DNA of 50,923 nt from Oscillospiraceae bacterium. GTDB lineage: Bacteria; Bacillota; Clostridia; Oscillospirales; Oscillospiraceae. The notes beneath the pieces are model-generated. The model was given only the letters and a program-made list of their open reading frames with translations. It made no database searches and was not told the origin of the DNA. The position numbers and the translations under genes are program-made. Of this stretch, positions 35,939-43,173 are shown in pieces. The stretch spans positions 1 through 50,923 of the forward strand of contig JAFVVH010000062.1 in NCBI GenBank assembly GCA_017502285.1, in the 5' to 3' direction. Positions within the stretch are counted from its first letter, which is position 1. Every line of letters begins with the position of its first letter.

Positions 35939-37693
35939 TCATTCTCCTCCATATGATTTGGCTTGTCTGTATTTGGCCTGGGCGGCGCGCAGCAGCTCCT
36001 CGTCTGTGCCACCCTGTTGTTTCAACCGCTCCATGCGGATGATGGCTATGTAATCCTTGAGCGCCTGCTGGGCATGGCCCAGATTTTCCGGCCGGTCGGT
36101 GATTCGAGCCAGATGGCTCATTTCCTCCGCCGTTAGGATGTTGGCCAAGCCGCCCAGATTGCCCCCTCGTCCCTGCCCGTGGCGGTCGCGCAGCAGGTCA
36201 AACACCTTGCCCAGCAGCGGCGCAGAAAATTCCGACCCGGTCAGATCCTCCGTTCGGTCCAGCAGTTCGGGCTCCAAAAGCACCAGCCTCAACACACCCT
36301 CTTCCGCGGCGGCGGAACGGACATTATCATAGCGCAACCCCTTCTGGTTGGGCTGCATATTGGCCGCAGGGGCCAGATCATGGCGCTCCTGCTTTTTCTT
36401 CTCCTTATAGATGCGCCGGCGCAGTTCCTTTTTGACCTCCTGCGCCATGGCATCCGCGGAGATACCCGCTGCCTGCGCCGCTCTTCCGCCGTAGACCTCC
36501 CGCTCCACCGCGCTGGATAGGGATGCGATCAGACCCGTAGCCTCGTGGAGAAACTCGATGCGCTGGGCATCGTCTTTCAGGTCGTATTTACTTTTGATCT
36601 TTTCCAGCCGATATTCGATGTGATTGGTGCTCTCGTCCAACAGCTTGGCAAAGGCATCCCTGCCATAGCTCTTGATGAACTCGTCCGGGTCCTTCGCTCC
36701 GCGCATCTGGAGCACCTTCACCTTCAGCCCCGCCTTTTCCAGCAGAGGGATGGCCCGCTGAGCGGCGGCTACACCGGCCCCGTCTCCATCGTAGGCAATG
36801 ACCGCCTCCTTGGTGTACCGGGCCAACAGCTGAGCATGGTCGGCTGTGAGTGCCGTCCCCAGACTGGCTACCGCGCAGTCAAAGCCCGCCTGATGCAGGG
36901 CAATGGTGTCCATATAGCCTTCGGTAAGGATGATGCGTCCGGCCTTGGTCTTTTTGGCGATGTTCAGTGCAAAGAGATTGCGGCTTTTGTTATACACCGG
37001 GCCTTCCGGCGAGTTGAGGTACTTGGGCTTGGAGTCGTCCATGACCCGCCCGCCAAAGCCGATGACCGAGCCGCGCACATCGATGATGGGAAACATGACC
37101 CGGTTGCGGAAGCGGTCATAAATGCGGCCCTTGTCGTTGCTCACCGCAAGTCCGCCTTCCAGCACCAGCTTCTTGTCGTATCCCTTTTCCGCCAAAGCGG
37201 TCAAAAGTCCGTCCCAGCTGTCCGGAGCAAAGCCCAGCCCAAAGTTGGTCAGGGTGGCCTGAGACAGGCCGCGCCTGCGCAGATAGTCCAGCGCCTGCGC
37301 ACCCTGTGGGCCGTAGAGTTGGGAGTGGAAGTACCGGGCCGCCTCTTTATTCATTTCCAGAAGCCGCTCCCGTTTTTCCTTGCGTCCCTTGTCATAGTCG
37401 CTTTCCGGCACCTGCATCCCAGCCCGCTGGGCCAAGTTGCGCACCGCGTCCACAAAGGAGAGATTTTCCGTCTCCATCACAAAGTTGATGGCACCGCCGC
37501 CCTTGTGACAGCCAAAGCAGTAATAGATCTGCTTGTCCGGAGAGACGGAGAAGGAGGCAGTCTTTTCGCTGTGAAATGGACACAGGCCCCAGTAGTTGTT
37601 GCCTTTTTTATTCAGCCGGACATAACTGCCCACCAGATCTACGATATCTGTTCTGGACACCAGCTCGTCCACAAATTGTTCGGGGATGGCCAC
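35939..37693 (-). CDS. dnaG: DNA primase
   Basis: 584 residues from a GTG at 37693, 7 bp behind GGAGG; an open frame upstream runs into the duplicated dgt tail and lacks a ribosome site. The N-terminal CHC2 zinc ribbon has C38, H41, C59 and C62. The Toprim part shows [13 protein letters not shown] and [11 protein letters not shown], and the C-terminal DnaB-interaction domain is present. It makes RNA primers at the replication fork. It overlaps the first possible rpoD ATG by 4 bp. The order dnaG-rpoD is the conserved macromolecular synthesis operon. Confidence 0.97.
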
Positions 37694-37732
37694 ACACTCT
37701 CCTCCTCTCTTATGTTTCAAAAAGCGAAACCC

Positions 37733-37807
37733 GCTTATTTCACCGTCCACCCCATAGGGATAAACAGTTCCTCAAATTTCTGCACCGCAAACGGATCGGT
37801 CATGCCG
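37733..37807 (-). repeat. Second copy of the dgt 3' end (dnaG-side)
   Basis: A 75-bp direct repeat of 37957-38031 that encodes GMTDPFAVQKFEELFIPMG plus WTVK and stop. It differs from the dgt copy at three bases, all third codon positions and all synonymous (Phe, Ala, Gln codons). It is not attached to a full dgt gene. Confidence 0.9.
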
Positions 37808-37956
37808 TTTTCCCACGGGGCAGGCCCCGCGGGAGCCCTGTTTTTGATTTGAAATGCTCGGCGAAAATGAATTCCGCCTGCGCCAAGGTTCTGCGCAAGC
37901 GCAGAACGCTTGTACGCGCTTATGCGCGCCCCGCTTTGCGGGGACCCCCATCGCCG
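37808..37956. repeat. Hairpin-rich spacer between two dgt tails
   Basis: 149 bp packed with inverted repeats: CCC(A)CGGGGC-AG-GCCCCG(C)GGG (37814-37833), GTTCTGCGC-AA-GCGCAGAAC (37888-37907), CGCGC-TTAT-GCGCG (37915-37928) and CCCCGC-TTT-GCGGGG (37929-37943). None has a U tract. On the minus strand the region is open in one frame and joins the second dgt tail, but no ribosome site is seen. It looks like a small repetitive element or the relic of an insertion. Confidence 0.7.
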
Positions 37957-38031
37957 GCTTATTTCACCGTCCACCCCATAGGGATAAACAGTTCCTCAAA
38001 TTTTTGCACGGCGAACGGATCGGTCATGCCG
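37957..38031 (-). repeat. dgt 3' end, copy belonging to the intact gene
   Basis: The 75-bp segment that forms the last 23 codons and stop of dgt. It repeats at 37733-37807 with three mismatches. Repeat offset is 224 bp. Confidence 0.9.
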
Positions 38032-38963
38032 GCGATGTAATCGCACACGGCCCGCTCCACGCCTTCCTCCATGCGGATGTTCTGGAAGTCGGAGGGAAGC
38101 TCGTCCGGGTTGGTGCGGTAATATTCAAACATGGCCTGAAGCATGGTCTGCGCCTTGCCTTCCTCGCCCTTGGCAAGGGGGTTGGTGTAGACATTGGCAA
38201 ACATAAATTCCTTCAGCGCCAGCATGGCCTCGCCCACCTCGGGGGTCTGAAGGATGCAGTCCTGCTCCCGGCTTGCCCGGATCGCATCCAGCACCAGCGT
38301 ATTGATACGCTCCCCATGCGTGAAGCCCAGCACGTTGGATATCTCCAGAGGGATGTCCATGGGATAGATGATTCCGCCCCGCAGAGCGTCTTCAATATCG
38401 TGATTGATGTAGGCGATGTGGTCAGCAAGGCGGACCACCTGACCCTCCAGTGTGGCGGCATCCTTTCCCTTGGTGTGGCACAGGATGCCGTTGCGCACCT
38501 CCCAGCTCAAATTGAGTCCTTCGCCGTTTTTCTCCAGCCGCTCCACCACCCGCACGGACTGCTCATAGTGAGCAAAACCAACCGGCATCACCGCCGCCAG
38601 CGCCCGCTCTCCTGCGTGGCCGAAGGGAGTGTGCCCCAGGTCGTGGCCCAGGGCGATGGCCTCGGTCAGGTCCTCGTTGAGCCGCAGAGCCCGGGCAATG
38701 GTTCGGGCAATGCGGTTGACCTCCAGCGTATGGGTCATGCGGGTGCGGTAATGGTCGCCCTCCGGCTGAAGAAACACCTGTGTCTTGTGCTTCAGACGGC
38801 GGAAAGCCTTACAGTAGACGATGCGGTCCACATCCCGCTGAAAGCAGGTGCGTACCTCGCTCTCCTCCTCCGGCCGCTGACGGCCTTTGGAATTCATCGC
38901 AAGGCAGGCCCGTTCACACAGGCTCTGTTCCTCCAGCGCTTGTATCTGTTCTCTCAGGGTCAT
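37959..38963 (-). CDS. dgt: dGTP triphosphohydrolase-like protein
   Basis: 334 residues, the shorter type of deoxyguanosinetriphosphate triphosphohydrolase. The HD-domain residues are in RTRMTHTLEV (H), GHDLGHTPFGHAGE (HD) and, near residue 195, VRLADHIAYINHDIED (D). It cleaves dNTPs to deoxynucleosides and triphosphate. It is upstream of dnaG and rpoD in the conserved cluster. Its last 23 codons are duplicated downstream. The ATG follows GGGAGGGTGGAAC. Confidence 0.93.
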   Translation of the reverse strand: MTLREQIQALEEQSLCERACLAMNSKGRQRPEEESEVRTCFQRDVDRIVYCKAFRRLKHKTQVFLQPEGDHYRTRMTHTLEVNRIARTIARALRLNEDLTEAIALGHDLGHTPFGHAGERALAAVMPVGFAHYEQSVRVVERLEKNGEGLNLSWEVRNGILCHTKGKDAATLEGQVVRLADHIAYINHDIEDALRGGIIYPMDIPLEISNVLGFTHGERINTLVLDAIRASREQDCILQTPEVGEAMLALKEFMFANVYTNPLAKGEEGKAQTMLQAMFEYYRTNPDELPSDFQNIRMEEGVERAVCDYIAGMTDPFAVQKFEELFIPMGWTVK

Positions 38964-42252: not shown

Positions 42253-43173
42253 TCAGCTCTCGATGACTCCGGCGGCACGCAGGGATGCCAGCAGGGCATT
42301 GAACTGCGCGATCACCTCATCCAGCGTTGCAGTAGCGACCAGATCAGCCACCGCAGGACCGGGAGTGATCGTTCCAGCAGGGCCGACAGGTCCGGTTGGA
42401 CCGGTGGGGCCTGTTGCACCGGCAGGACCGGTAGGGCCGGTCTCACCGGCAGCACCCGTTGCTCCGGTGGGGCCAGTTGGACCAGTAGGTCCGGTAGGAC
42501 CGACTGCACCGGTGGCACCCGTTGCCCCGGTAGGGCCGGTGGGACCAACAGCGCCGGTAGCGCCAGTGGCTCCGGTAGGACCGGTGGGACCGACTGCACC
42601 GGCAGCGCCCGTTGCCCCGGTAGGGCCGGTGGGACCGACCGCACCGGCAGCGCCCGTGGCTCCGGCAGGACCGGTGGGACCGACTGCACCGGTGGCACCC
42701 GTTGCCCCGGTAGGACCGGTGGGACCGACTGCGCCGGTGGCACCCGTTGCCCCGGTAGGACCGGTGGGACCGACTGCGCCGGTGGCACCCGTTGCCCCGG
42801 TAGGACCGGTGGGGCCGACTGCGCCGGTAGCGCCAGCGGCTCCGGTAGGACCGGTGGGGCCGACTGCGCCGGTAGCGCCTGTGGCTCCGGTAGGACCGGT
42901 GGGGCCGGCTGCGCCGGTAGCGCCTGTGGCACCGGTGGGACCGGTGGGGCCGTCAGGCCCGGGGATACCCTGAGGGCCGGTGGGGCCGGTAGGCCCATTG
43001 GGACCCGGAATCCCCTGTGGCCCCGTTGGGCCGGTAGGCCCGACTGCACAAGTTGGCGGGCAGGGCGGGGCGGGTGGGCAGACCGGGGTGCAGCTGCATC
43101 CACAACTGTTCACACCGTTTGCCGTCACTGTCAGAAAGCCCTGACCGCAGTCAGAGGAAAAATAATGATTCAT
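42253..43173 (-). CDS. Collagen-like, Cys-rich surface protein (BclA-like)
   Basis: 306 residues from the ATG at 43173, 6 bp behind AAGGAG; the frame is open further upstream, but through the preceding terminator. Residues 1-44 contain seven cysteines (9, 24, 26, 28, 32, 38, 42) and prolines. Residues 45-266 are 74 uninterrupted G-X-Y triplets, mostly GPT, GAT and GAV. The last 40 residues form a hydrophobic helix-rich domain ([16 protein letters not shown]) ending GVIES, which probably trimerises the collagen stalk. No signal peptide or sortase motif is visible. This plan is like exosporium or spore-coat filament proteins of Firmicutes, with the Cys-rich start as the anchor. Thr-rich triplets are candidate glycosylation sites. 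Confidence 0.9.
42502..42906 (-). repeat. 45-bp tandem repeats in the collagen region
   Basis: Nine imperfect units of 45 bp encode [15 protein letters not shown] with Ala/Thr variants (codons 90-224). The units differ mostly by third-position changes, so the array is a candidate site of length variation. Confidence 0.85.

Follow-up and report, generated by a model that had tools for sequence, protein, structure and literature searches.

This work describes a short non-coding element that lies between two copies of a gene end in a 50,923-nucleotide (nt) stretch of DNA from an Oscillospiraceae bacterium (contig JAFVVH010000062.1 of assembly GCA_017502285.1), a stretch that we refer to as a whole as the window. 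Its source is a metagenome-assembled genome (MAG) of 1.49 Mb in 83 contigs, 78% complete. On the minus strand, dgt, encoding dGTP triphosphohydrolase (open reading frame, or ORF, at 37959 to 38963, recognized by NCBIfam dGTPase models), is followed by the open frame of dnaG (35939 to 37750). A repeat search of the window returned a 78-nt direct repeat of 95% identity at a spacing of 224 nt (37730 to 37807 and 37954 to 38031), whose 75-nt core (37733 to 37807 and 37957 to 38031; repeat D1) encloses a spacer of 149 nt (37808 to 37956). The search thereby confirmed the preliminary description of the locus, which had the last 75 bp of dgt recurring 224 bp away; its statement that all three differences between the copies are synonymous third-position changes also held (locus L001: TTC/TTT in Phe, GCC/GCG in Ala, and CAA/CAG in Gln codons, none nonsynonymous). 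Since dgt is on the minus strand, the copy at 37957 to 38031 lies inside dgt and is the proximal end, whereas the dnaG-side copy at 37733 to 37807 is a distal orphan. We read the proximal end, the one that dgt uses, as brought with the element, and the distal end, on the basis of the repeat and of relatives lacking the insertion, as native. That the dnaG frame is open from the second copy onwards had been taken as a sign of nativeness; this observation carries no weight, as the ORF merely extends back to a GTG at 37750.

The element itself (37808 to 37958, minus strand) was delimited by its folding and by its other copies, and the region from 37805 to 37958 folds with a z-score of -4.07 relative to shuffled sequences. 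It begins right after the dgt stop with X' (GCCGGCGATG, 37949 to 37958), a putative guide that is the reverse complement of, and pairs with, the target X straddling the insertion point (CATCGC|CGGC, 38028 to 38037; inverted-repeat score 10). Four hairpins follow on the same strand: P1 (GGGGTCCCCGCAAAGCGGGGC, 37928 to 37948), seen in sequence, fold, and alignment A1 and present in many elements, not all; P3 (approximately 37883 to 37912), placed by fold and the same alignment; P4 (GGCGGAATTCATTTTCGCC, 37860 to 37878), the most conserved part of the family, placed by pattern matches and covariation; and the right-end hairpin P5 (approximately 37811 to 37834), placed by stem counts relative to shuffles. 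An Rfam scan of the window gave nothing relevant and no family at gathering score.

Among the 19 dgt loci first examined in relatives, 17 are empty and carry a single tail, while those of the window and of genome G128 are occupied, each at its own point. Sixteen of the empty loci have dnaG within about 250 nt downstream, which marks dnaG as the native neighbor of dgt, and a 9-nt X is exact in 10 of the 17. In genomes G000, G334, and G351, dgt is occupied at the same site, with G334 and G351 sharing the exact insertion point and the X' of the window (GCCGGCGAT). The proposal that the tail-spacer-tail layout arises from an insertion restoring the gene end was thus borne out by one-tail alleles, and dgt shows the coexistence of empty and occupied alleles at the same site expected of homing elements that restore a gene end.

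Copies at other gene ends and the origin of the tails

Copies of the spacer exist at three further places in the same MAG, at the 3' ends of aspS, asnS, and hfq (asnS being identified from its same-site element group), and each is flanked by a duplicate of its own gene's end. A 30-base core pattern, allowing up to 2 mismatches, was present in 26 of 300 genomes of the bacterial family, while the reversed pattern, used as a control, was present in none. An exact core scan of genome contigs matched at least 120 stretches, and the 80 matches listed come from Oscillospiraceae, other Clostridia (Flavonifractor, Pseudoflavonifractor, Intestinimonas, Oscillibacter, and Dysosmobacter), or entries with broader or unclassified names. 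Carriers include the isolates Flavonifractor sp. An10 and F. plautii ATCC 29863. Within the genus of the window, the element is found in 30 of 64 genomes, at up to 15 places per genome; among the complete genomes, G309 has 12 matches and G305 has none. In all, 160 distinct cores were collected, 12 of them lacking any seed match; some loci drawn from two collections may represent the same species, identical ones having been merged. After exclusion of 13 cores with insufficient flank, gene-end duplication was detected around 80 of 147 cores, compared to 5 of 147 when, as a control, left and right flanks from different loci were joined into chimeras. The duplication at dgt is therefore far beyond chance.

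We also curated a set of 79 unique elements, defined by a duplication score of at least 20 or 22 together with an X' score of at least 8.5; at least 2 members (L082 and L261) look like low-complexity chance matches. These elements occupy 40 sites, 21 of which have two or more members, and the same insertion nucleotide is reused at up to 7 loci (argH, 7; the 5' end of lepA, at its P-loop HGKST, 6; uvrB, 5; asnS, 4). The targets are mostly housekeeping genes, including lepA (at both ends), uvrB, uvrC, asnS, aspS, infB, efp, tuf, secA, argG, argH, tpiA, gpmI, eno, serC, lysA, nadE, ilvD, ilvN, tsaD, ychF, truB, and typA, among others. Gene 5' ends are used as well, namely, those of lepA, uvrC, truB, arcC, eutA, and typA. 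At one locus (L271; G308:C200:79600-84562), three adjacent glycolysis genes (tpiA, gpmI, and eno) have an element apiece at their 3' ends.

Two loci (L126 and L150) hold tandem units with three gene ends. A further copy, on an IMG/VR phage contig (L157), lies with its X' (seen by eye) at the end of a terminase-like gene, which matches an NCBIfam model at E = 2e-8, below the model cutoff, and has no Pfam match; downstream are a portal-like gene (PF04860, E = 1.9e-6, below cutoff) and then a capsid gene (PF25209, above cutoff). This copy and the hfq copy (L004) fell below the script thresholds and are outside the curated 79, their X' having been read directly. The phage and plasmid collections gave one partial match each, on an unannotated phage scaffold and in a stretch beside truB in Vescimonas, respectively.

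The third-position pattern seen at dgt recurs across the family. Tail pairs differ at 17 of 571 first, 9 of 576 second, and 89 of 590 third codon positions, counts in which codon frames were chosen by script and at least one locus (L017) was misframed, adding 4 of the 27 nonsynonymous codons. In a larger set, comprising 62 elements whose tails have homologs elsewhere, the differences number 61, 24, and 188, respectively. Polarization against relatives is noisy at third positions (dgt tails of different species are 67 to 89% alike), and only second positions were relied on: of the 24 differences there, 11 could be placed on the orphan and 2 on the used copy, the other 11 being left unassigned. 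Even if all 24 are counted, in 1,378 sites, drift since insertion comes to about 2% at most, too little for 188 differences in 1,392 third-position sites; the divergence probably dates from a time when both ends were working alleles. Family-wide, this third-position bias argues that one tail was probably imported from a relative, although selection on an orphan reused after excision could mimic it. The preliminary idea of an imported tail is thus supported by the family as a whole, while for dgt itself relatives do not decide which tail is ancestral: third positions vary freely among them, making the three differences uninformative.

The core also occurs in other settings. P3 and P4 are found within elements resembling miniature inverted-repeat transposable elements, with the ends AGACTGTCAAAAA...TTTTTCGACACGCTG (Candidatus Metalachnospira gallinarum; L046, L054, L072, L086, L096, L097, and L115), several of which have a terminator-like hairpin duplicated on both sides and in which no X' was seen by eye. 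At five loci (L010, L011, L012, L014, and L024), cores lie just past terminator-like hairpins of opposite-strand tRNA genes (tRNAs recognized by eye); these mostly have no left gene-end copy and perhaps reflect a second way of landing. Elsewhere in the window, positions 42302 to 42900 and beyond hold a long array with a 9-nt period, which gave 50 overlapping 300-nt matches; among the matches listed (29 besides the reference), identity to the reference is 61 to 81%.

The inverted site copy and the structured core

Along the strand of the core, the order is gene, X1/X2, rest of the gene end, X2'X1', P1, P2, P3, (S)CGCA, P4, GAG, linker, P5, orphan gene end, and next gene, with insertion between X1 and X2. 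The duplicated gene ends measure 27 to 109 bp in the curated set; the carried end includes the stop codon and in some cases (asnS, for example) a terminator-like hairpin of its own. The stretch between the end of X' and the right junction is 84 to 147 nt long in the 38 clean elements. P5 is followed by 0 to about 5 nt before the junction, after which X2 and the orphan end resume.

X' comes after the used tail and is a reverse-complement copy of the bases on both sides of the insertion point. It measures 9 to 25 nt (median, 14) in the curated set, which, having been selected for X', is not informative on how often X' is absent. Among the 80 duplicated cores, X' scored at least 9 relative to the junction region in 46, compared to 2.8% when X' regions were swapped between elements, and 40 cores have an X' that spans the junction at a score of 8 or more. 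Between elements at the same site, X' agrees with its own X at 67 of 82 pairwise differing positions, a count that includes nonindependent pairs and in which selection for an X' match favors tracking. Some X'-X mismatches are shared (L229, L230, and L238). As such, X' looks to be inherited with the element and kept in step with its target, rather than rewritten at each insertion.

In the structured core, P1, where present, often reads GGGGCCCC..GGGG, and P4 has the form GGCGGAATTCAYTTCCGCC. The commonest P4 stem occurs in 59 of 77 classified elements; P4 nevertheless varies through compensating changes (GGCGG/CCGCC, GGGCG/CGCCC, and GGTGG/CCACC), and the pair just outside it is C-G in 18 and G-C in 15 of 36 elements. 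RNAalifold on the whole alignment recovered only P4 and two flanking pairs. At the right end, a stem of at least 8 bp is present in 65 of 79 elements, compared to 5 of 79 shuffled sequences. The P5 sequence varies between elements and nonetheless pairs, with all four standard pairs at inner positions. Pairs in P5 and P3 were counted by script; read on the strand with X' first, nonstandard pairs in P5 comprise 34 G-T and 1 A-C, an asymmetry that suggests an RNA of X'-first polarity.

A probable homing element that carries its own repair, and rival explanations

We consider it probable that these copies constitute a family of non-coding homing elements in which X' guides insertion and the carried gene end repairs the target. 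The unit would comprise X2 with the rest of the gene end, X2'X1', the structured core, and the right hairpin, and its insertion point, between X1 and X2, would be conserved and close to one end of the target, in most cases a housekeeping gene. The incoming gene end would replace the native one, leaving the host gene intact and the native end as an orphan farther downstream. In an element-free allele, the target would be selected by X', whose complement there runs uninterrupted across the cut. We assign the guide role to X' because no other variable part was seen to match the target on both sides of the cut, and we infer the agent to be an RNA: the structured core with X' would probably form a 5' guide, scaffold, and terminal hairpin for a protein supplied in trans. 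Tails would arrive by transfer between close relatives. The copy on the phage contig indicates a possible vehicle for the element. Recombination of the two ends with each other would remove the element and likewise restore the gene. The tandem units with three gene ends show that a restored site can be reused, which points to an insertion reaction rather than to a nuclease that has to spare its own host. A more specific reading, to which we give somewhat less than an even chance, is a natural RNA-programmed home-and-rescue system of gut Clostridia, with RNAs of about 150 nt bearing a 5' guide of about 14 nt that would steer their own insertion, together with a spare gene end, into conserved points of essential genes, being moved by an as yet unrecognized protein and reprogrammed gene by gene through re-copying of the target as X'.

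Several observations weigh against this interpretation. X' scores below 9 in 34 of the 80 duplicated cores. Where assessed, it fits the proximal copy in use no worse than the native copy (6 mismatches in 300 positions for each), and a cutting nuclease so guided would attack its own host. No motif with the strength of a protospacer-adjacent or target-adjacent motif (PAM or TAM) was found beside X; the junctions of 38 elements show no more than a weak G-W|G-G tendency. Where a 5' end is the target, element and gene point in opposite directions, and a separate transcript would have to supply the RNA. Of the G-T pairs in P5, 20 of 34 fall at a single position, and P3 has only 2 G-T and 1 A-C; an RNA is for these reasons suggested, not proven. 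At dgt, the two tails of a genome are 92 to 96% alike, compared to 67 to 89% between species, which implies either that donors are close relatives or that tails were later homogenized.

To these can be added that, among IscB, TnpB, Y1, RAYT, and reverse transcriptase, no mobilizing protein was found to track the element. Profiles of IscB (PF14239), Y1 transposase (PF01797), and reverse transcriptase (RVT_1, PF00078) were run on 46 genomes, consisting of 26 carriers (25 of the 26 pattern-positive genomes plus G128) and 20 pattern-negative genomes, which may hold diverged copies, as G128 had. IscB exceeded the cutoff in none of the 46, with one weak match below it; Y1 occurred in 13 of the 26 carriers and in 9 of the 20 pattern-negative genomes, and RVT_1, the enzyme of retroelements such as group II introns and diversity-generating retroelements, occurred in 10 of 26 and 10 of 20, neither being present in the MAG of the window. 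RAYT and TnpB profiles were run on 18 genomes of the window's genus, 8 element-rich and 10 without a match: RAYT, the gene associated with REP elements, was found in 5 of 8 and 6 of 10, and canonical TnpB was found in 1 of 8 and 5 of 10. Comparing all ORFs within 2.5 kb of the cores against one another gave no common mobile gene in the best 45 clusters, and no omegaRNA-type (HEARO) Rfam family matched up to E = 5 in 10 element loci. One candidate was dropped: a weak PF07282 match to a 294-amino-acid zinc-ribbon protein, present in 8 of 8 element-rich genomes compared to 1 of 10, is AccD, encoded in the acetyl coenzyme A carboxylase operon, and the G309 copy was confirmed as accD. Separately, RAYT-like genes adjoin housekeeping genes in several genomes (L188 to L194, by eye), with no association with the element.

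Much of the same evidence can be read as single-strand DNA transposition of the IS200/IS605-like "peel and paste" type, in which X' would be a DNA guide beside the left hairpin, pairing with the left cleavage site X, and a unit including the gene end would excise as a single-strand circle and re-enter at X in another allele. X' indeed adjoins the 5' foot of the left hairpin, its pairing partner is the left junction, and a hairpin closes the right end, as in the known layout of IS200/IS605; strand-specific tolerance of G-T also fits single-strand DNA; the scheme would further explain why X' matches the proximal X and how tandem units form. However, half of the carriers have no Y1, including the window's MAG (itself incomplete at 78%), and the guide has a median of 14 nt rather than the 4 nt of IS200/IS605. 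Nor is there a lagging-strand rule: orientation relative to the replication fork is mixed, with 6 co-directional and 11 head-on among 17 core matches in two complete genomes, for which dnaA was located and the terminus was assumed to lie opposite, some matches possibly being incomplete elements. We therefore judge this route unlikely. We are more doubtful still that the arrangement is a by-product of local break repair, with fold-back synthesis duplicating the gene end and leaving a functionless X' beside a core that is an ordinary hairpin repeat. Such synthesis would copy X in exactly the observed orientation, and it would suit both the lack of a mobilizing protein and the 34 cores with low X' scores, but the tails would then start identical and the orphan would drift at all positions, instead of showing 188 third-position and 24 second-position differences. 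In addition, X', where present, lies at the 5' side of the same structured core and follows X in its variation, and single insertion nucleotides are reused at as many as 7 loci.

We leave a slim chance to an account in which single insertion events were followed by nothing more than ordinary homologous recombination, carrying gene ends from strain to strain without active homing. Homology on both sides, in the gene body and downstream, would permit such transfer after DNA uptake, the dgt tails come from close relatives if they were imported at all, and a copy on a phage contig exists; this account nevertheless fails to explain a conserved core at about 40 sites, each with a matching X', or the tandem units. 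The preliminary description had favored an element integrating into the 3' end of a gene as its attachment site, possibly the relic of a larger integrase-type element. Apart from the tail-spacer-tail layout, little speaks for this, and we regard it as very improbable: the part between X' and the right end leaves no room for a protein gene, about 40 unrelated sites are used rather than one att site, and many genes serve as targets at their 3' and their 5' ends alike, with a separate guide-like inverted copy of the site in each case. Within 5 kb on either side of the 80 cores without near duplication, no larger version was recognized, five distant repeat pairs (L029, L054, L070, L113, and L154; content unread) aside.

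If the homing interpretation is true, a mobile element would be invading the coding ends of essential genes harmlessly by carrying the cure with it, with its target written inside it as a complementary copy. It would point to an undiscovered enzyme, and the re-copying of the guide for a new gene would become testable. Annotators, for their part, should beware of dismissing the duplicated gene ends of these genomes as mere errors of assembly.

Comparison with known systems

The element looks like a new kind. It is not described in the publications searched, which excluded most subscription journals and leave an earlier description possible. IS200/IS605 elements and their minimal derivatives end in hairpins and contain a short internal stretch able to pair with the junction, their guides being 4 nt; in contrast, the guide described here is about 14 nt, Watson-Crick, and gene specific, and the element carries a gene end, has no fixed target tetranucleotide, and shows no link to Y1. 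OMEGA systems (IscB/TnpB) employ a structured RNA with a guide matching the insertion site and thereby favor the spread of a small element. Here, by comparison, the guide is an inverted internal copy rather than flanking sequence, and no Rfam match, IscB above cutoff, or TAM was found. In integron cassettes (attC), a box in the 3' hairpin region is complementary to the start of the same unit, and units occur in tandem; unlike these, the present units share no common core site, and each matches one gene. Group I introns combine an internal guide that pairs with the 5' junction and a catalytic core; in the present elements, X' pairs across the junction, the last base of X1 is T in only 12 of 38, and no Rfam intron family matched the window or 10 element loci.

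Closer in logic are the mobile ORF elements of fungal mitochondria, known from Allomyces atp6 and from Glomus atp6, atp9, cox2, and nad3 (PMC3630166). According to the parts of that paper available to us, they likewise insert near a gene end, bring a foreign in-phase C-terminal end, and leave the native end duplicated downstream, the gene ends being diverged in DNA and largely conserved in protein (PMC3630166). They differ in encoding LAGLIDADG or GIY-YIG endonucleases within gene hybrids of 1.2 to 1.9 kb (PMC3630166), whereas the element has no ORF, measures about 150 nt, and carries a gene-matched inverted guide. The synthetic home-and-rescue drive HomeR, as presented in the accessible portion of its report, resembles the element in that an inserted re-coded gene end with an exogenous 3' untranslated region rescues the gene (PMC7968924). 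HomeR is engineered, Cas9-based, and used in flies, and its end is re-coded (PMC7968924), whereas the X' of the element still matches the restored copy. Within those portions of the two papers, a non-coding 150-nt unit with an inverted, gene-matched guide appears in neither system (PMC3630166, PMC7968924). Mobile ORFs and home-and-rescue drives are the nearest known systems, and, should the homing interpretation hold, the logic of an engineered home-and-rescue drive would be at work in common gut bacteria.
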